Assembly (NCBI GenBank): GCA_016647705.1
Contig: CM028335.1
Location: 37,764,712-37,828,711 of the forward strand
Direction of reading: 5' to 3'
DNA from: Eucommia ulmoides
Lineage: Eukaryota; Streptophyta; Magnoliopsida; Garryales; Eucommiaceae
Length of the DNA: 64,000 bases
Shown here: positions 3,004 through 45,543 of the stretch, piece after piece
How the letters are laid out: every line of letters starts with the position of its first letter
How positions within the stretch are numbered: position 1 is the first letter of the stretch
Made by a program: the position numbers and the translations under genes
Notes under the pieces: generated by a model
Database searches by the model: none
What the model was told of the DNA's origin: nothing
Seen by the model: only the letters and a program-made list of their open reading frames with translations

Positions 3004-5752
3004 TTAGTTACCTGGATTGAACAAGTGCGGATATTTATATCTCATCTAATCTTCTCGTTGCCACGTCGCCTCCTCTACGGAATGATCGCGCTATAACACT
3101 TTCACCAGTGGAATTGTTTTCGTCCATAACACCTGATCTTTACAATTTAAAATCTGGATTGGCTCCTCAACGTATGTCAAATCCTCTTCTAATTCGATTG
3201 GTTGAGAAGTTAACACATGCGAAGGATCTAACACATATTTTCTAAGTATCGATACATGGAAAACGTCGTATAGTCTGGATAATTCTAGCGGTAAGGCAAG
3301 TCGATAAGCTGTTGTGCCGACCCGTTCTAAAATCTTGTATAGCCCGATATATCTCAGACTTAATTTTTCTTTCTTCCCGAATCTCATTATGGCTTTCCAC
3401 AGGGATATACGCAAAAATACATGATCACCCACTTCAAATTTCAACTCTCGCCTACACTTGTCAGCATAACTCTTTCGCTGACTCTGAGCAATTTTCAATC
3501 TTTCCTGAATTACCTTTGTTGGCCCAGTAGAATACCCAAGAGGCGGGGTGACTTGGGTAATTAAAAAATAATCAGAATAAAAATGAATAAATCAAATAAT
3601 TAATTTTATGCCTAAATTAATTATTATCTTTATAACACAGCGGAATTAATCAATCAACTAGGTACACACACAAACAGTAAAAATAGACAAATTAAGAAAG
3701 CAACACACCATAGATTTATACTGGTTCACCAAGCTACTCTTGGCTAATCCAGTCTCCCAAGCTCTACGGAGGTTGCACTCACTAAAACCAAGATTCCTTT
3801 AAAGGTACGAACCAAACCCGCACACCGATTCTTTTACAGGCTCAGAATCAACCTTTACAATTTTCTTTTCAAAGGCTAAGGAATAACCTTTACTTTTTAA
3901 AGGCCAAAGAATAACATAATTCTTTTTAACACTTAGGCTCAAAATCACCCACTAAAACCAAGATTCCTTTAAGAGTTTATATTTACCTGGGTTGTTTTCC
4001 CTAATGTCTTAAAACTTTTAATACTTCTTCATTATCTTGATATCTTCATTTAACATCCATTCACTTTGACATCTTCATTATTGGAACTTTAAATCACTGA
4101 AACACTTGATCAAACATTAGTTCTACCAAAATATCAATATTTAATTGTTCATCAAAATCTTGGGATCAACAACCTTTACTTTGTCTGCCGTCATTTGGGC
4201 TATATCCGACATCAGTAATTTTCTTTTTCTCATTTCAGTCCAACAGACTAGAGTCCTGTATCTACTGCCATACAACACTTCATACGGGGCCATCTCGATT
4301 GCCAAATGGTAGCCATTATTGTAGACAAATTCAATCAACGTCAAATGATCACCCCAGCTACTAGAAAATTCCAAAACACAACCCCGCAAGATATTCTCTA
4401 ACGTGTGAATCGTAAGCTCTGATTGGCCGTCAGTCTGAGGATGAAAGATGGTACTGAATTTCAGCTTGGTACCTAAAGCAGTTTGGAGACTCAGTCAGAA
4501 CTTCGAAATAAATCTCGGATCTCTATTCGACACTATGGAAATTAGTGCACCATGTAGTCTAACAATCTCGTCAATATACAATTGGGCATACTGATCCAGA
4601 GAGTACGTCGTCTTTACGACCAAAAAATGAGCAGATTTAGTGAGCCTATCAAAGATCACCCAGATAAATTTTTGTCCATTTGAGTGTAGGGTAATCCCGA
4701 AATGAAATCCATTGTGATATGCTCCCATTTCCACTCTGGAATAGGTAGAGGCTACAATAATCCATCTGGATGTTGGTGCTCGATCTTGACTTGCTAAAAC
4801 GAGATACCTGGTAACAAATTCAGCAATTTCCCATTTCATTCCATTCCATCAATAGTGTTCTCGCAGATCCCGATACATTTTGGTACTACTTGGGTGCATT
4901 GCGTATGCTGAGCTGTGTGCTTCCTCTAAGATATCATTTTTTAGATTGGCATCATCAGGCACACATAGTCTATTTCCAACCATCAAAGTCTTATCGTTAT
5001 CCCTGACACGATAGTCGGTTCTATAACTATTTTTCACTTCATCTCGGGTTTTCTCCAATTGGCCATCCGACTTTTGCGCTTCTATAATACGGTCAATCAA
5101 TGTCGGTCTCAAAGTCAAAGTCGCAAGCAACGCTGCCGTATGACCAACCACCAACTGGACTCGCAAAGATCTCAACTCAGCATACAGATTAGCATGAACA
5201 ACTTGAATGTGTGCAATTGAACCCATTGATTTCTGACTCAGCGCATCTGCCACAACATTGGCCTTTCTAGGATGATAGTGGATAGTACAATCATAATCCT
5301 TGATCAATTCTATCCAGTGTCTCTGCCTCAGATTTAGTTCCTTCTGAGTAAACAAATATTTCAAACTCTGGTGGTTGGTGTATATCTCACACGTATTGCC
5401 ATACTGGTCATGCCTCCAAATCTTCAAGGTAAACACAATCGCCGCCAACTCTAAATCATGCATCGAGTAGTTATGCTCATGATTCTTTAATTGCTGGGAT
5501 ACATATGCAATCACATGACCATGTTGCATCAGTACACACCCTAGCCCTTGGTGTGACGCATCACTGTAGATCACAAAACCACCACCTTCAGTTGGAAGGA
5601 AAAGTATTGGCTTAGATATCAGTCTACTCTTCAGCTCTTGAAAACTCTACTCACATTTTTCAGTCCACTCAAATTTGGACTCTTTGCGGGTCAATCGGGT
5701 CAACGAGGCAACTATAACAGAAAATCCGTTTATAAACCGACGATAATAACCC
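3004..5752 (-). pseudogene. Ty3-gypsy (Tekay/Del-like) pol remnant: end of RT, RNase H, integrase
   Basis: Minus-strand pol fragment. In order from high to low coordinates: the end of RT with GYYRRFINGFS (5.75-5.7 kb), RNase H starting [15 protein letters not shown] (about 5574), the integrase zinc-binding region ending REHY (4849), the integrase core (TMDF-type block, then SNRDPRF at about 4.51 kb), and a C-terminal part with GDHVFLR, HVSILRKYV and EEATW (3.5-3.0 kb), as in Tekay chromoviruses. The core has a catalytic Asp replaced by Asn (SNRD for the usual SDRD), frameshifts around 4.5-4.85 kb, and an in-frame TAG just before the EEATW tail. The piece is split by a solo LTR at 3517-4171 and truncated at about 5752, so gag, protease and most of RT are absent. 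Confidence 0.85.
3517..4171 (-). mobile_element. SIRE-like copia solo LTR, internally deleted, TSD ACCTT
   Basis: Starts TGTTGGCCCAGT and ends GGGATCAACA, the inverted form of the LTR found complete at 51409-53848. It is flanked on both sides by ACCTT (3512-3516 and 4172-4176), a clean 5-bp target-site duplication. Removing it and one TSD restores the integrase reading of the interrupted gypsy element. At 655 bp it is far shorter than the other copies (1.9-2.4 kb), so it carries a large internal deletion. Confidence 0.9.
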
Positions 5753-37762: not shown

Positions 37763-37857
37763 TGTCAATGAATATGCTAATACTTAAATGAATTACGAAA
37801 TTCTTGAAGAAAAAATATTATATTTATGAAAAAATTGTTGTTATTTTTTCAGAACAA

Positions 37858-38253
37858 ATGTCAGAACGAGAAGTCAAAGATTTAAGAAATACAGTATTTA
37901 AGATAAAAATAACAGATTTTTATGAAGAAGTTTGTTGCGAAGAGTGTGATAAAAAAACCAATAGTATAAGATTACCAAAGATACATGATGTTTACATGCC
38001 TGCTACATCTTTTGTAGGATATCATTCTATAAATTGGTTAAGGGTAAATGCTAAAGAAACCTTTAAATTTATTTGCTTAGTCGATTATGTTATTAGTAAT
38101 TCAGAATTGTTGCCTGAAATAAAGCAAAAAATAAAATGGATTTTATTAAATGACTTAAACAACCATTATGCAAAAATTGACCAATGTGAAAAAGAAAGAA
38201 CTATTTATACTTTTGATGATGGAACTTCTTATATTTTTGATGGCTTTGAGTAA
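37858..38253 (+). CDS. Pararetrovirus small ORF 1 (131 aa), unknown function
   Basis: First good ATG after the primer site; the frame also runs upstream to 37804 without a better start. Lys- and acid-rich, mostly helical, with two CXXC-like cysteines (CCEECDKK) near residue 27. Its C-terminal part (EIKQKIKWILLNDLNNHY) resembles the ends of the three ORFs at 44.35-45.5 kb. Its stop overlaps the next start (TAATG), the arrangement used for reinitiation or leaky scanning. I know no function. Intact frame here, though the virus as a whole is broken. Confidence 0.6.
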   Translation: MSEREVKDLRNTVFKIKITDFYEEVCCEECDKKTNSIRLPKIHDVYMPATSFVGYHSINWLRVNAKETFKFICLVDYVISNSELLPEIKQKIKWILLNDLNNHYAKIDQCEKERTIYTFDDGTSYIFDGFE

Positions 38254-38501
38254 TGTCTATCGAAAAGGTTAATGAAAATACAGAGTTGCCAAAAGGACTT
38301 GCTATAATAACCAATAATCAAGAAAAGATTATGAATGCTATAAACAATAATAAAATTTTAATTGAAAATTTAAAATCTGAAAGAATAGGAATTAGAGAAT
38401 TTCCTATGCCTTCTTATAGAAGAGCTTATGTTTTAAATACTGAAGATAACGAAACTGCTTCTTTTGATAGTAACAATAATATGAAATTCTACAAGAATTA
38501 A
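38253..38501 (+). CDS. Pararetrovirus small ORF 2 (82 aa)
   Basis: ATG overlaps the stop of ORF 1. Asn/Lys/Glu-rich, with a likely coiled-coil segment (residues 20-45). By position it could be a virion-associated or aphid-factor-like small protein, as second small ORFs are in several genera, but there is no motif to prove this. Confidence 0.55.
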   Translation: MSIEKVNENTELPKGLAIITNNQEKIMNAINNNKILIENLKSERIGIREFPMPSYRRAYVLNTEDNETASFDSNNNMKFYKN

Positions 38502-38509
38502 ATGTTCTT

Positions 38510-39617
38510 ATGAATACAGAAATTGGAACTAGTGGTGTTAGACAACCTGTTGACCCAACAACCTCTGGTCAAAGTGCTCAAACAACTCAAACTGCTCCAG
38601 AAGCTACAACCAATGCTAGTACTCCTCCTAGGAGAACTACACGTGATTTTCTAAATGATCCTTCATTATTTACTATTCCTTCTGTTAATGAAACATTCCC
38701 TGAAAATATAAGAACAAACCCTGCTTTTAGAGATTCTAGAAGAGGAATAAGCGAAGCTAATAAAGAACTGCTTAAACAAAAAATTGGTTTACCAAAGACA
38801 GAAAATATTTCTAAAAACGGAATCTATTTGAACATAGATAGTTATATGGGAAATACTGCTATAATGGAAGAAATTATCTCAAAATGGGAAAAATCCTTAT
38901 ATATTGTTGCTATATTTAGAAATGTGTTTGGACATGAAGAAATAACTGAGGATCCTTTTTCAAAATGGATACCCATGACTTTCTTAGGAAATATTAGTAA
39001 TTGGTGGACAAATCTTGGAATTCATGCTAAAAATAGCATATAAGTCCATACCTAACGGGAAAATGGAAGACTCCCTAGGAACTAGGATAGAGTATGCTCA
39101 AAGACAGATAGGAATATAGTGTGCTGCTGCTAAAAATGCTGAATTATATAGAAAAGATCACCAACTTGGTCTTTACTGTGAAAATCAATCTGAAGCACCA
39201 AAGCAATTTGGATGTGCTGATATATTCCCTAGAAAAGCTAAAAAATTGTTCAAGAAGAATAAATATAAATTAAAAAAGACATTTAAAAGAAACTTTAAAC
39301 CAAGAAACCCGTTTAAAACAAAAAGATTTTTTAAGAAAAGGAAATTCAATAAAAAGTCTCGTCCAGAAGTTAAAGCTGCTTAAGAAAAAATAGTCAAAAC
39401 ATGTAAATGTTGGGCATGCAATGAAATAGGTCATTATGCTAATGAATGCCCTAATATAAAAAACAAACGAAGCGCTAAAGTAAAAATATTCTTAGAACAA
39501 GATGAATCTGATGTTAGTGAAACAAATGATATTTCTGATATTGAAACTGAAGAAGAAGTTTTCTATCTTGAAGAAACTAGTGATGAATTAGGAAGCGAGT
39601 ACGAGTACGAGTACTAA
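38510..39617 (+). pseudogene. Pararetrovirus coat protein
   Basis: Starts with a Thr/Ser/Gln-rich leader, then a helical core (to 39043) holding WTNLG. A +1 shift near 39030 and a stop at about 39118 break it. A Lys/Arg/Phe-rich basic stretch follows (39.23-39.38 kb), then an in-frame stop, then the zinc knuckle CX2CX4HX4C at 39408-39450, and an acidic tail ending in repeated Glu-Tyr. Basic stretch plus knuckle plus acidic tail is the standard coat-protein layout in this family. Defective. Confidence 0.8.
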
Positions 39618-40060
39618 TTCTGATAGAATACATGATAGGACAGATGCCTTGCTAGGTCTTGTTCATGGAAACCTTAGTCAAGGAATTCTGGGTATAAAAG
39701 TCTATCTAAGATATTCTATTAGTATACAAAAACCAAGGATAAATGAAGTATTTAGCCTTACTCATGAATATCCTAGAAGGAATTTTATGGAAGATGGAAT
39801 ATTTCCTTATTTCATAACATATCATGTTGGTTACTTCTTAAGTAATAGTCATCATAGTGATAAGTTTATGAAACATGAATTTATCGAGATTGACAAAGTG
39901 TTTGAACCTTTTGCTAATATTTATAAACCCGATTTAGTAAAAGAAATTGATATGCTTGCTAATTGGAAATTAGATATTAATAAAAAACCAGAAATTGATG
40001 TTGCTAGATTATCTAGTGCTAATAACTATGGAAAAATCAAAAGGATATCTTCTTTAAAAA
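39618..40060 (+). pseudogene. Pararetrovirus movement protein, C-terminal half only
   Basis: From about 39622 (DRIHDRTDALLG), continuing HGNLSQGILGI and YHVGYFLSNSHHSDKF, which are features of the 30K-type movement protein of caulimovirids. The N-terminal half of the 30K fold is missing, so a deletion removed it between the coat-protein tail and this point. It is in one open frame with the following protease-like domain (39649-40332). Confidence 0.65.
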
Positions 40061-40119
40061 TAACTAGTGGAGAAATAGGAGAGTGTTCTATAGATAGACG
40101 AATGATAGAAAAGAAAGTT

Positions 40120-40480
40120 GATGTTCCAACTTATAAAATAAAAATAAAATATTTTGATGGAAATAGGTTAAAGGAAGTAGAAGCTTTAATAGACATTGGA
40201 GCATCTATTAGTTACATATCTCCTAATAAGATATCTGATGAAATACCTAGAAAAATTCTTGATGAGAATTATGTTTATAAAGATCTTAATGGATTTAAAC
40301 ATACTATCACACAGACTGCTGATATTCCTTAGATAATTAGAAACAAAGAGTTAATGTTTCCTATAAAGATGAAAAGATGGAATTGCTATTAGGAAATAAC
40401 TTTCTCGATTACTATTTTCCTTATAATATTACCTATAATACAATTATGCTCACAATAACAGATGAACAAATATATATCCC
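40120..40480 (+). pseudogene. Retropepsin-like domain 1 of the pararetrovirus
   Basis: Active-site block ALIDIGASISYIS, catalytic Asp at 40192-40194, and about 65 codons later (40383-40410, after a frameshift) the C-terminal block LLGNNFLD. These two blocks are the hallmarks of a retroviral aspartic protease monomer. The usual Thr or Ser of DTGA is Ile here. A second copy follows at 40490. Confidence 0.7.
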
Positions 40481-40489
40481 AAGGATAAT

Positions 40490-40815
40490 ATGAGAAGCCC
40501 TATTTTCTTTAAAATAAGAATTGTTATTCATAATGAGATTGTTTACATACCATGTCTTTTAGACATAGGTGCTGATATTTGCTTGATGAATAAAAAAGTA
40601 TTACGATATAAGATATGGAAAAAGACTAAGAAATTTACAATAAAAGCCAAAGATTTTGAAGGAAAACTTTTAGACTTAAATATTATTGCTAAAAATATTT
40701 TGATACTATTCGGAGATCGATATATTAAAATTCCAATAATATATCAACAAAATACAATGAGAGTGTTAATGCTGTCAGGAAACAATTTCTTAAGCTTTTT
40801 TAAGAAAACTTGCTT
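40490..40815 (+). pseudogene. Retropepsin-like domain 2 of the pararetrovirus
   Basis: CLLDIGADICLMNKKVL with Asp at 40562-40564, then LSGNNFLSFFKK at about 40774-40806. Same spacing and same DIGA variant as domain 1. This one is in frame with the start of RT (to 41182). Confidence 0.75.
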
Positions 40816-42315
40816 TACTAAAAAAATTGCTGAATTCCTAACACCCCATTCACATTGGATAAGATTACCGTGCTTACCAATCATAAACATTGTTTATACG
40901 CAAAAACGTGATGATATTTACCTCCTTGCAAATATTATTTTTGAGAAACTCGCTAATAATTTTGGCAAAAATCCAACTGCTTTATGGGATGTTGATAAAA
41001 CATATGCCAATATAGAATTAATTAATCCTACTGATATAATAAGAGTGAGAGCCATGAGATATTCTGAAGAGGATATTAAAGAATTTGATACACAAATTCA
41101 AGAATTGCTAGATCTAAAACTGATCCAAGAAAGTAAAAGTCCTCACTCGAGTTCTGCTTTTATGGTAAGAAATCATTCATAAATAAAACGTGGAAAAGTT
41201 AAAATGGTAGTTAATTACAAAAAGCTTAATGAAAACACTAAATTTGATGGATATTTTCTGCCTCATAAAGAAAGCCTGATTGATAGAACCAAAGGTAAAA
41301 AAGTGTTTTCAAAATTTGATTGCAAAAGTAGATTTTGGAAAATTAAATTGACCAAAGAATCTGTTCCACTAACTGCTTTTAGTACGCCAAATGGTTATTA
41401 TGAATGGCTTGTAATGCCGTTTGGTTTGAAAAATGCTCTGCAAATATTCCAACGAAGAATGGATAAAGTGTTCAGTAAGCTATCTGATTTCTGTATTGTC
41501 TATGTCGATGATGTGCTTATATTATCTGATAATGAAAAAGATTATTTAAAGCATCTTTATGTTTTTGCAGATCGATGCAAAGAACGAGGTAACTTGTTAT
41601 CTAAAAAGAAAGATGAAATTGGAAAACATAAAATTGAATTTTTGGGATTAATAATTGATGCTACAGGAATTGAGATGCAACCTCATATCTGTGAAAAGAT
41701 AATTGCTTTCCCTGATACTCTAGAAGATAAAAAAAACAAGTTCAAAGATTTTTAGGAGTCTTGAACTATGCTGAAACATTTATTGAAGGATCAGCTAAAC
41801 ACATGCAACCTTTCCATAGATTGCTTAAAAAAGGTGTTAAATTTAATTAGACAGAAGAACTTTCTAATAAAATAAGAGAAATTAAAAGCCTTACTGCTTA
41901 TTTACCAAGATTAACCCTGCCTTCTGATGAGGATGATTTAATTTTGGAAACTGATGCTTCAAATGCCTATTGGGGTGTTATACTAAAAACTGTGACTGGG
42001 AAAATCTGTAAATATGCCGGTGGAATGTTTACTGAAACTCAACAATGTTACCATAGTAACCTTAAAGAACTACTTGCTATTAAAAAAGTAATAGAAAAAT
42101 TTAGATATTTTCTTATTCCAAAAAAGTTTATAGTAATAACTGATAATACTCAGGTTAAAGGATTTATCTTTAACAAATTACCAACAAGTCCTGAATATAA
42201 TAAAATGAACGGATGACAAATGTTTTTCCAACATTATAATTTTAATGTTATTCATAGAAGTGGTAAACAAAATATTCTTGCTGACTTCTTATCCAAGGAA
42301 GGTCATGGAAGCTGA
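40816..42315 (+). pseudogene. Pararetrovirus reverse transcriptase and RNase H
   Basis: RT begins at about 41040 (IRVRAMRYSEEDIKEF), stop at 41180, resumes MVVNYKKLNENTKFDGYF (41204), FSKFDCKS, YYEWLVMPFGLKNAL, and polymerase box YVDD at 41501-41512, then FLGLIID. A frameshift at about 41750 and further stops lead to RNase H: ETDASNAYWGVIL with catalytic Asp at 41953, YHSNLKELLAIKK, TDNTQVKGF, and HRSGKQNILADFLSKE at the end. The FDGYFLP and FDCKS forms place it nearer the caulimo/cavemo/solendo branch than badnaviruses. Confidence 0.9.
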
Positions 42316-42451
42316 TAAGGACTCAATCGAGATTCCTTTAAGTGCTATTAAATCCATTGAGAAATATTGTTCGCAATGACATTATTTCTTAAGTACTATA
42401 GAAGAACTGATCCATTTGTACAAGATCAGAAGTGCTAAAAAAGGTAGAAAT

Positions 42452-43569
42452 ATGGAAGGTGAAACTTCCAGTGTTAAAAAGGACGATGCTTCATCCAATG
42501 TTTCAAAAAGTAATGCTGAGAATTCTAAAACTCAGATAAGTCAGATCATTGATGATCTGCAAAGTGCTACTCTCATCTGCTCACCCAATCAGTATGTCGA
42601 TCAAATGATGAAGGCAAAGGAGACCCTTACGGTTCCTAGCCCCTCTGTTCAGAAATTTGTTCAGTTCACAAAACCTCATCAGAATCCCGTTGTTCTAATT
42701 TTTATTTTTGTTGAAATAGCTGCTTTTTCTTCAAAAGCTAAAAATAGTATGCTCGTGTGTCTAAATGATAACTTCCATCAAGAATACTTGAAAAACCTCA
42801 AACTTGCTTATAAAATTCGTATTGATGAAGATTCCAATATTTTTCCTTTTCATGGAGGAAGATACCCTAGAATGGCCAGCTTGCTTGAGACTCTTACTGA
42901 TCAAATTGAAAAGATATTCAATTATGGATATCTTGATTTTATAATTTCTGACCCAAAAACCAGTGCTGAGAAAGGAATGCTAAAAAAGGTGCAAGAAGCC
43001 ATTAAAAGATTCCATGAACAAAGAAACCAAAAAACTGTATTAATAAAATGTTTTAGTGCTGCTCCTGAAAAAAGATATGATTCTTATCATATCGTTCAGC
43101 TATCCAAAAATTGTGCTAACTTAATCCCTGAATATAACCCGAATCAAGTCTTCAAAGAGGTACCAAAACTCTTAGAAAGTAATAAACTCGAACATTTCAT
43201 CGCTACAAGACGAGTCTTAGGATTTTATGTCCTTGAGAAAAAAAATTAAAAAATTTCATTGAATGGGATAAATGGTACGTTTACCCTATGAGTACTGATA
43301 ACCTGTTGATATTAACTACTGAGTGTAGTCAATTTTATGGTGCCGCAAAAGCCTCTGCTACGAAGTGGTTAGAAATGATACGAATGGTGAAATTTGCTAC
43401 TAGTGAAATGGTCAAGAAATTGACTTGTCAAATGCTTAAACATGCTGAAGGAACTTGTGCCTACTGTAAAGAAACTGTAGAGAAAAAGATTACATGGGCA
43501 GATATTCCATGCGAAAGTGATGAAGAAGTCCTAGTATTGTTAAACGTCACTGTATGCGTCACGATGTAA
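42452..43569 (+). pseudogene. Pararetrovirus transactivator/inclusion-body-like protein
   Basis: By position (after RNase H, before the promoter) this is the transactivator gene. First ATG 42452 (MEGETSSVKKDDA). One open frame to 43249, then a shift in an A run (43238-43255) and continuation at 43288-43569. Support: a helical block (VQEAIKRFHEQRNQKTVLIK) and a C-terminal Cys/His cluster (TCQMLKHAEGTCAYCK) of the type seen in transactivators. The central domain is poorly conserved, so this is a moderate call. Confidence 0.6.
43545..43561 (-). promoter_or_regulatory. as-1-like element (two TGACG, 7-bp spacer)
   Basis: On the minus strand TGACG CATACAG TGACG: two TGACG boxes with the 7-bp gap of the as-1 type bound by TGA/bZIP factors. 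It lies inside the end of the transactivator frame, about 275 bp upstream of the TATA box. Confidence 0.5.
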
Positions 43570-43962: not shown

Positions 43963-44350
43963 GTATCTGAGTCTTTAAAAATATGTGTTGTGATTTCCTT
44001 AGCGTATTTAACCCATATCATCTGTGAGAGTCATATCCTGTTTTCCATAAGAACCTGGAGCGATTTAGGCTTGGTATTGTGTCTGGAGTCCTTCAGCTTG
44101 GTTAGCAATTTGAGTGTGTTAGGCGTATTTGGGCATTTTGGATTGGCACTAGAATACTGAAGAGACCTTTAGAGGCTACGATCGTTAGCTCTAAAAGAAG
44201 ACGTAGTGGACCCTTTACAGGTATAAGGTAAATTTTTGGTAAGGAAATGACATACATATCACAAAGCTTAATATTTTATAACATGATTTCGACAAACAAG
44301 TACTCTATCTTTATCAACTAAAAAAACCCTTTCTTTTAAACAATTCTCAA
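43963..44350 (+). other. Pararetrovirus leader region
   Basis: Leader with scattered short ORFs (the 90-codon ORF 43888-44160 is Leu/Ser/Val-rich and I judge it chance). TTACAG|GTATAAGG at 44215-44228 has the form of a splice donor. Confidence 0.5.
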
Positions 44351-44351
44351 C

Positions 44352-44698
44352 ATAAATGAACAAGAATTTATTAGAAGATTTATACTCGTATTTGAAACTG
44401 TTGATTCAGGAAAACTTGAAAGTGTTTATAAATTTCATGACGAAATTGACGTGTTACAAACTGCTTATATGAAAATTCTAGCTGAAAGATCTATAATTGG
44501 AAGTTTTCATAATATGAGTGCTGTTGAATTATGGGAATATGAAAACGAAAGGAGAAGTGACGGAAGAAAAATTGAGACCCTATACATGATAAGAAGATAT
44601 CTGCTAAATATAATAAGAACTAAATATTCTGAAAAGGATCCCATACATGCTGCTTATGCTGCTTATAGAAATAGAAGACAAAATAAAAATAATCTCTG
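44352..44698 (+). pseudogene. Pararetrovirus small helical ORF a
   Basis: Open from about 44343; the first in-frame ATG is only at 44469, so the start has been lost or is non-AUG. Carries FIRRFILVFETVD, YKFHDEIDVLQTAY and a C-terminal MIRRYLLNIIRTKY. Similar to ORFs b and c downstream. Confidence 0.5.
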
Positions 44699-44707
44699 AT
44701 TATAATA

Positions 44708-45040
44708 ATGAGTGAACAAAATCTGTTAGATAAATTACCTGCACAAGGATTTATGAAAAAAATTCTGCTTACTTTTGATAAAGTTGAGCTTGAAACTCTT
44801 GAAGAACGATTAGAATTCCGTGATGATATAAATATCCTATTAATTTCTTATATCAGAATTGTATTTGAGAAACCTCTACCAGGAAATAACATGACCAAGA
44901 TTGAAAATGGTTCTATAACCATCAAAGAATTAGTGATAGGAGAAAAATTGATTGCCTTAAAGCAATTAAAAATTGTATCACTGAAATAATTGAAAGAGAA
45001 TATGCTAAAGATGACCTTGCTCATACAACATATGATACTA
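44708..45040 (+). pseudogene. Pararetrovirus small helical ORF b
   Basis: Starts MSEQNLLDKL at 44708 (preceded by TAATAATG), with FMKKILLTFDKVE and EFRDDINILLISY. Frame shifts at about 44957; the continuation IEREYAKDD is in another frame. Lies 9 bp after ORF a. Confidence 0.5.
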
Positions 45041-45124
45041 GGATGTGACAAAGTAAAAGAAAAACTGCTGATGTTAGCCAATTTCGAAATTATATCCCCA
45101 GTTTTGAAAGTTTTTGCCTTCAAA

Positions 45125-45493
45125 ATGAATGATCAAGTTTTTCTGGATAAATTTATGTTTGCTTTTGACGAATTAATCATTGGAACAAAAGAATATGTTT
45201 ACGAATTCTATGACCAAATAAATTCTGCTATAAAAGGAATGGAAAGAATGATGGAATTAAATCATGCTTATTCAGAAATTCTCTCAATCATTAGTGCTTT
45301 CATTGACATAAGATTAAGTAATTTGCGAAAAATCAATCTACTATGTGAAATACGCCGCTACTTGAAAAATATAATTTCTAGAGATTTTGGAGATCATTAT
45401 CCTGACGGAGATCTTCGTGATAAAAAAGAATTGTTTGTTGAATATTCCTCTGTTGGATATTCCGCTGTCGGCTCATCTGACCCGCCTAGTGGG
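45125..45493 (+). pseudogene. Pararetrovirus small helical ORF c
   Basis: Starts MNDQVFLDKFMFAFDE, with YEFYDQINSAIKGM and CEIRRYLKNIISRDF. Its C-terminus runs into the inverted coat-protein piece at 45494. Same layout as a and b. Confidence 0.5.
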
Positions 45494-45543
45494 CTATTTT
45501 TTCTTGAGCAGCTTTAACTTTTGGACGAGACTTTTTATTGAAT
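45494..45543 (-). repeat. Inverted 50-bp piece of the coat-protein region
   Basis: Reverse complement of 39344-39393 with two mismatches. It forms the right end of the viral insert. Confidence 0.9.

Follow-up and report, generated by a model that had tools for sequence, protein, structure and literature searches.

Wendovirus has been described by de Tomas and Vicient in 2022 as a tentative genus of endogenous Caulimoviridae (PMC9794742). Its layout, repeated in a review (PMC10377300), comprises partly overlapping open reading frames (ORFs): one with a CCHC motif, a second encoding a movement protein (MP) and an aspartic protease, a third encoding another aspartic protease followed by reverse transcriptase (RT) and RNase H, and a fourth without known domains. 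Wendovirus has also been placed in clade A of a further study (PMC13308828). According to the available text of the original description, the possible functions of the second protease remain unknown (PMC9794742), and no account of its function was found in the accessible parts of the literature on the topic. In the present study, a stretch of 64,000 nucleotides of the Eucommia ulmoides genome (GCA_016647705.1, contig CM028335.1, positions 37,764,712 to 37,828,711; here referred to as the window) was analysed. An element at 37.8–43.3 kb of the window (approximate ends) was interpreted as an endogenous caulimovirid that has decayed and is laid out like Wendovirus, and this identity and layout were assigned a probability of roughly 0.92.

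Pfam searches with separate pieces of the window returned, from 5' to 3', CCHC, MP, second protease, RT and RNase H; the element is an endogenous caulimovirid. As in Wendovirus, two proteases are encoded in two neighbouring ORFs, designated here PR1 (ORF2) and PR2 (ORF3). ORF1 carries a zinc finger, ORF2 specifies MP and a protease, as seen in another copy of the element (locus L027), and ORF3 encompasses a protease, RT and RNase H. ORF2 of L027 spans 455 codons from stop to stop and matches both MP (PF01107, E 2e-32) and, for PR1, PF02160 (E 1.7e-8); this copy is open through both protease domains. In the window, RNase H was found on a piece of its own; in L027, only PR2 and RT were seen in one frame, which ends at position 3665 of the locus. 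Compared with Wendovirus, the window copy is decayed and lacks approximately half of MP. Members of the genus Cavemovirus encode coat and movement proteins in one ORF, an arrangement not shared by this element: the 455-residue MP-PR1 ORF of L027 showed no Pfam CCHC match at E≤10, and the CCHC and MP pieces of the window are in different frames. A sequence-only reading of the window had described a fused pair of such domains as a layout unfamiliar from this family; two proteases are a mark of a published tentative genus (PMC9794742), and the double protease is of an already published kind, ordinary for its group.

Both retropepsin domains proposed in that reading proved genuine. All parts of the element from the CCHC piece to the ORF4-like frame are located on the plus strand. 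DIGA active-site blocks are present in PR1 (LIDIGAS, with the aspartate at 40192) and PR2 (LLDIGAD, with the aspartate at 40562), and each is followed by a G-NNFL block, i.e. LLGNNFL at approximately 40386–40406 (read by eye) and LSGNNFL at approximately 40772, respectively. When all six reading frames of the 64 kb were scanned with the pattern [LIVMFAY][LIVMFA]D[TSI]G[AST], three hits were obtained, two of which are the PR1/PR2 pair; the third is located on the minus strand in a stop-filled frame. PR1, at the C-terminus of ORF2, was assigned to positions 40093–40493 from a tblastn alignment in which all 143 residues of the L027 natural PR1 were covered in two pieces. The domain is broken in the window, where it is open to 40332, and because of an in-frame stop and a frameshift its LLGNNFL end is in a different frame from its DIGA block. 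PR2, at the N-terminus of ORF3 (Pol), was assigned to positions 40490–40813 and shows no interruption between its ATG (40490) and the end of LSGNNFL. PR1 thus forms the tail of the MP ORF and PR2 opens the PR-RT ORF in a different frame, the ORF2 stop and ORF3 start overlapping in an ATGA at 40490–40493, as read from the sequence and from junction counts in other loci.

A retropepsin profile scan of the window copy recovered PR2 (Peptidase_A3, PF02160, E 1.2e-8) but not the open PR1 piece, for which the best match, RVP, was below every cut-off (E 0.075). When the two domain pieces of the window were searched against PDB sequences, no retropepsin was matched at E≤10. The window copy alone is insufficient to prove PR1; the pair is nevertheless real. 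In L027, PR1 (9.4e-10) and PR2 (2.9e-11) both exceeded the Peptidase_A3 cut-off, and structure predictions for both natural domains of this copy, rather than of the window copy, showed retropepsin folds. The spacing from the aspartate to the downstream glycine in L027 was 70 codons in PR1 and 72 in PR2. More generally, the retropepsin D-T/S-G motif with a hydrophobic-G motif about 70 residues further on was found in PR1 and PR2 copies, the window carrying isoleucine in both domains.

The tandem pair was also retained elsewhere in the genome (946,670,599 bases in 391 contigs), the sequence-only reading having proposed a look for it in less damaged copies. Across these 947 Mb, the PR2 piece yielded at least 150 matches (150 of 1138 candidates scored) and the MP/PR1 piece at least 229 (150 of 479 candidates scored), the number of MP/PR1 copies being lower than that of matches because some places matched in two pieces. 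Thirty loci were read per search, and five places were common to both, giving 55 loci; the window locus is present in both sets (as L001 and L031, respectively). Both domains, whole or partial, were found in 29 of the 30 MP/PR1-picked loci, PR2 being absent from L006. Among the PR2-picked loci, 27 of 30 contained at least 60 residues of PR1 directly upstream, with 43 residues in L050 and none in L038 and L060. Several cases of neighbouring copies in opposite orientation, approximately 2–11 kb apart, were seen among the MP/PR1 matches listed (e.g. C2:43854247 + and 43864710 –; C3:32178575 + and 32189033 –; C8:34053960 + and 34055904 –), hinting at inverted clusters. Viral contigs were scanned for relatives, the queries being PR2, the RT piece, P0012 and two alignments (A2, A3), but none was confirmed, and a protein search with the window's MP/PR1 piece returned none among 367 candidates at E≤0.001.

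PR1 and PR2 are homologous. Those of L027 share 24% identity over 84 residues (BLASTP E 6e-5 as a single comparison), and profile-profile comparison with the genome's PR2 gave a probability of 93% with all PR1 rows and 77% with the genome's PR1 alone. A PR1-like domain following MP was further identified in proteins P0014 and P0015, each exhibiting 33% identity to L027 PR1. A tree was built from 26 rows, hand-picked from the first 30 loci and from proteins: nine loci were tried for PR1 (eight kept, L007 dropped for a stop) and nine for PR2 (six kept, L022, L010 and L004 dropped for a stop), together with nine of the 13 proteins of a first set (P0007, P0009, P0010 and P0013 left out) and all three of a second. 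The PR1 rows, i.e. eight of the genome plus P0014 and P0015, were on one side of a branch (support 100/99), and the genome's PR2 formed another branch (98/99). In approximately unbiased (AU) tests, forcing the genome's PR1 and PR2 together was rejected (p 0.003, or 0.005 without PR1 of P0015 and PR2 of P0016), while forcing all PR1 with the genome's PR2 was not (p 0.146 and 0.187). Since only the grouping limited to the genome's own PR1 and PR2 was rejected, the split between the two domains predates this virus lineage.

It is likely that PR1 dates from a time before the lineage of L027 parted from that of P0014/P0015, either as an ancient duplicate of the Pol protease or as an acquisition from a different caulimovirid. 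Consistent with such an origin, L027 PR1 passes the caulimovirid A3 cut-off, a common branch of all PR1 with PR2 is tolerated by the AU test, and the best non-PR1 match of L027 PR1 among nine representatives was the P0012 protease (43.5 bits, compared with 25.8 for its own PR2). PR1 of P0014, however, did not share this preference (22.7 bits, versus 23.9 for P0011 and 22.3 for L027 PR2), and with domains of approximately 100 residues and long branches, duplication and acquisition are indistinguishable. De Tomas and Vicient discarded duplication based on differing Pfam hits, PF13975 in ORF2 and PF00077 in ORF3 (PMC9794742), a stated reason which is weak for the present copies, because PR1 and PR2 of L027 share PF02160 as their best family; P0014, on the other hand, does match PF13975 rather than PF02160.

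Selection on the domains was assessed across the 55 loci by pairwise ratios of nonsynonymous to synonymous substitution (dN/dS) of the Nei-Gojobori type, with the same alignments read one base later as a control. PR1 exhibited a dN/dS of 0.16 (53 loci, 1307 pairs; shifted-frame control 0.77), compared with 0.11 for PR2 (54 loci, 1324 pairs; control 0.78), 0.18 for MP (49 loci, 1173 pairs; control 0.70) and 0.11 for the RT part (49 loci, 1116 pairs; control 0.84). Median values for the first 30 loci alone were 0.17 for PR1, 0.16 for PR2, 0.20 for MP and 0.12 for RT. PR1 was maintained as a protein at a level of constraint between those of MP and Pol, suggesting that it was probably a working enzyme. 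In the first set, the active-site positions were mostly conserved in PR1 (aspartate in 28, threonine or serine in 23 and glycine in 24 of 30 copies) and in PR2 (aspartate in 28, threonine in 25 and glycine in 23 of 29).

Several observations weigh against this interpretation of the element and its first protease. The Wendovirus assignment is based on ORF layout. Pairwise dN/dS blends viral evolution with later neutral decay, and copies are reused across many non-independent pairs; decay after insertion should raise the values. In the first set, the full DTGA is present in only 13 of 30 copies of PR1 and 8 of 29 of PR2 (22 of 27 and 16 of 30, respectively, in the second), decay having affected both domains. 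Furthermore, PR1 diverges fast: P0015 reads DTWA, with the active-site glycine changed, and its sole Pfam match to a protease is weak (PF13975, E 0.3), while P0014, which keeps DTGA, matches PF13975 (E 3.3e-5, below cut-off) and not PF02160.

The analysis shows two domains in two ORFs, a mostly conserved catalytic aspartate, retropepsin folds by prediction, purifying selection on both domains and two separate old lineages. The two retropepsins are encoded on two chains, PR1 being tethered to the C-terminus of MP and PR2 being placed at the N-terminus of the PR-RT-RNase H product; coupled translation, dimerisation, activity and substrates are proposed. By analogy with the known caulimovirid mechanism, ribosomes would terminate and reinitiate at the ATGA to translate ORF3. 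Reinitiation has been described for caulimovirids possessing a TAV protein, at ORFs that overlap or lie close together, and linkage of ORFs by AUGA has been described for caliciviruses (PMC5902531). Each domain would most likely form its own homodimer. PR2 would represent the usual protease processing Pol and capsid, and PR1 a second protease that may act on the ORF2 product or on neighbouring structural proteins. That PR1 is an active homodimer of its own is judged reasonably probable, and a catalytically silent role for it appears rather unlikely. Retropepsins need two aspartates, of which PR1 and PR2 each mostly keep one, and both domains occur together in nearly all loci read, as would be expected of an obligate PR1:PR2 heterodimer assembled from two chains with one catalytic aspartate each. 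However, PR2 sits in Pol like other caulimovirid proteases, its best viral fold match being that of cauliflower mosaic virus, the protease of those viruses is not known to require a second domain, and PR1 and PR2 are only about 24% identical; such a heterodimer is accordingly regarded as doubtful, and separate homodimers are preferred.

The sequence-only reading had also envisaged the pair as a fused, single-chain dimer. In pepsins (family A1), one two-domain chain contains a pair of related aspartic-protease domains, for which an origin by duplication is held (PMC2642776), whereas PR1 and PR2 belong to two chains. In nearly every locus read, PR1 and PR2 lie within approximately 370 bases of each other and keep their order, which would suit a fusion, but they are in different frames, and the exact ATGA overlap was observed in 22 of 29 MP/PR1-picked and 23 of 28 PR2-picked loci, counting only those in which both junction ends could be placed and with five places in both sets. 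Among the seven misses of the first set, L003 reflects a stray upstream alignment (another alignment puts the PR2 start on ATGA), L010 was misplaced and reads ATAA there, and L002, L009, L019, L020 and L025 differ in sequence or spacing; among the five of the second set, L033 is an alignment misplacement. Because this stop/start overlap separates two ORFs, PR1 and PR2 do not constitute a single-chain dimer, and the published elements likewise carry the two proteases in two ORFs (PMC9794742). Fusion would require –1 frameshifting, and inspection by eye, which is not a test, revealed no slippery heptamer at the window and L027 junctions; a single polypeptide is considered very improbable. In the natural protein P0016, the end of MP runs directly into a PR2-type protease and PR1 is absent, as if a deletion had joined ORF2 to ORF3.

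The isoleucine shared by both DIGA blocks had been taken as a sign of duplication, an idea that the copy counts rule out. At the second active-site position, PR1 of the first set (n=30) carries threonine in 22 copies, isoleucine in six, serine in one and alanine in one, and PR2 (n=29) carries threonine in 25 and isoleucine in four. In the second set, threonine was found in 25 of 27 PR1 and 25 of 30 PR2 copies, and isoleucine in two of 27 and five of 30, respectively. Isoleucine in both domains was confined to the window (L001) and L020 in the first set, and to the window's own locus (L031) in the second. Most copies of each domain carry threonine; the isoleucines are scattered private changes, not ancestral, and are silent on duplication. 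That the Pol protease was duplicated recently, inside this lineage of viruses, would agree with the homology of PR1 and PR2. This reading is rejected by the AU test under its model, is at odds with the single branch side holding all PR1 rows including P0014 and P0015, loses the isoleucine as its mark, and is considered next to negligible.

A search of predicted viral structures (BFVD) with the L027 PR1 model returned, in addition to Pol proteases, three proteins that resemble it in predicted fold: F2XXY4 (named coat protein/movement protein, from sweet potato collusive virus of the genus Cavemovirus; E 7.2e-9 with PR1 and 1.6e-6 with PR2), P15634 (uncharacterised protein 7 of soybean chlorotic mottle virus, 148 residues; 8.9e-6 and 9.9e-6) and Q919G1 (uncharacterised protein of blueberry red ringspot virus, 142 residues; 1.3e-5 and 2.1e-5). 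PR1 was clearly the better match for F2XXY4 only, P15634 and Q919G1 being matched about equally by PR2, and the structural alignments showed 26 and 23% identity to PR1 for P15634 and Q919G1, respectively. F2XXY4 resembles ORF2 in that a retropepsin-like predicted fold is located in a coat/movement protein, as PR1 is in the MP ORF, but by name it is one coat/movement polyprotein of 1264 residues, compared with 455 for the MP-PR1 ORF of L027. P15634 and Q919G1, both from soymoviruses, are separate small proteins, whereas PR1 is fused to MP. Judged by name and length, P15634 reads as the product of soymovirus ORF VII. That ORF is reported to encode a hypothetical protein, of 150 residues in water chestnut soymovirus 1, and to be one that peanut chlorotic streak virus needs in order to be infectious (PMC6482551); its function is reported as unknown in blueberry red ringspot virus (PMC7374169). 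Based on these modelled folds, it is tentatively suggested, as a possibility rather than a likelihood, that a second retropepsin outside Pol, beside or fused to MP, is an old trait common to wendo-like viruses, cavemoviruses and soymoviruses.

With respect to the remaining parts of the window copy, the coat-protein ORF (ORF1) is represented by a zinc-knuckle (CCHC) piece at 39384–39617 (PF00098, E 2e-5, at 39384–39614), in a different frame from MP. The open ORF2 piece at 39592–40332 contains the C-terminal half of MP, followed by the first part of PR1, and matches PF01107 (E 4.7e-13) at profile positions 104–184 of 191 only, compared with positions 23–185 for MP of L027; the N-terminal part of MP is missing between the CCHC piece and the MP piece (39592–40329). 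Downstream of PR2, ORF3 continues with an RT piece at 41183–41755 (PF00078, E 2.7e-32) and an RNase H piece, in a shifted frame, at 41851–42216 (PF17917, E 5.6e-17). An ORF4-like open frame at 42380–43249 has no Pfam match at E≤1, and its position fits that of the published ORF4. Upstream of the coat-protein ORF, two small open frames at 37792–38501 are joined by TAATG at 38251–38255; the four-ORF Wendovirus scheme, in its available description, names no counterpart of these. Downstream of ORF4, open frames are present at 44340–45517, of which those at 44340 and 44990 are alike (34% over 107 residues, E 1e-10) and neither matches Pfam.

Relative to the published double protease, the constraint on PR1 is new: the extra domain was kept by selection and therefore probably did something. 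What merits further attention is this maintained selection, together with the possible relatives that PR1 has outside Pol. Judged from the predicted folds, the occurrence of a second protease outside Pol may predate Wendovirus and extend beyond it. Were it indeed an old trait, the small soymovirus proteins would represent free-standing retropepsins and the wendovirus PR1 their MP-fused relative; and if the same extra domain is present in living cavemoviruses and soymoviruses, its role would be open to study in real viruses rather than in fossils.
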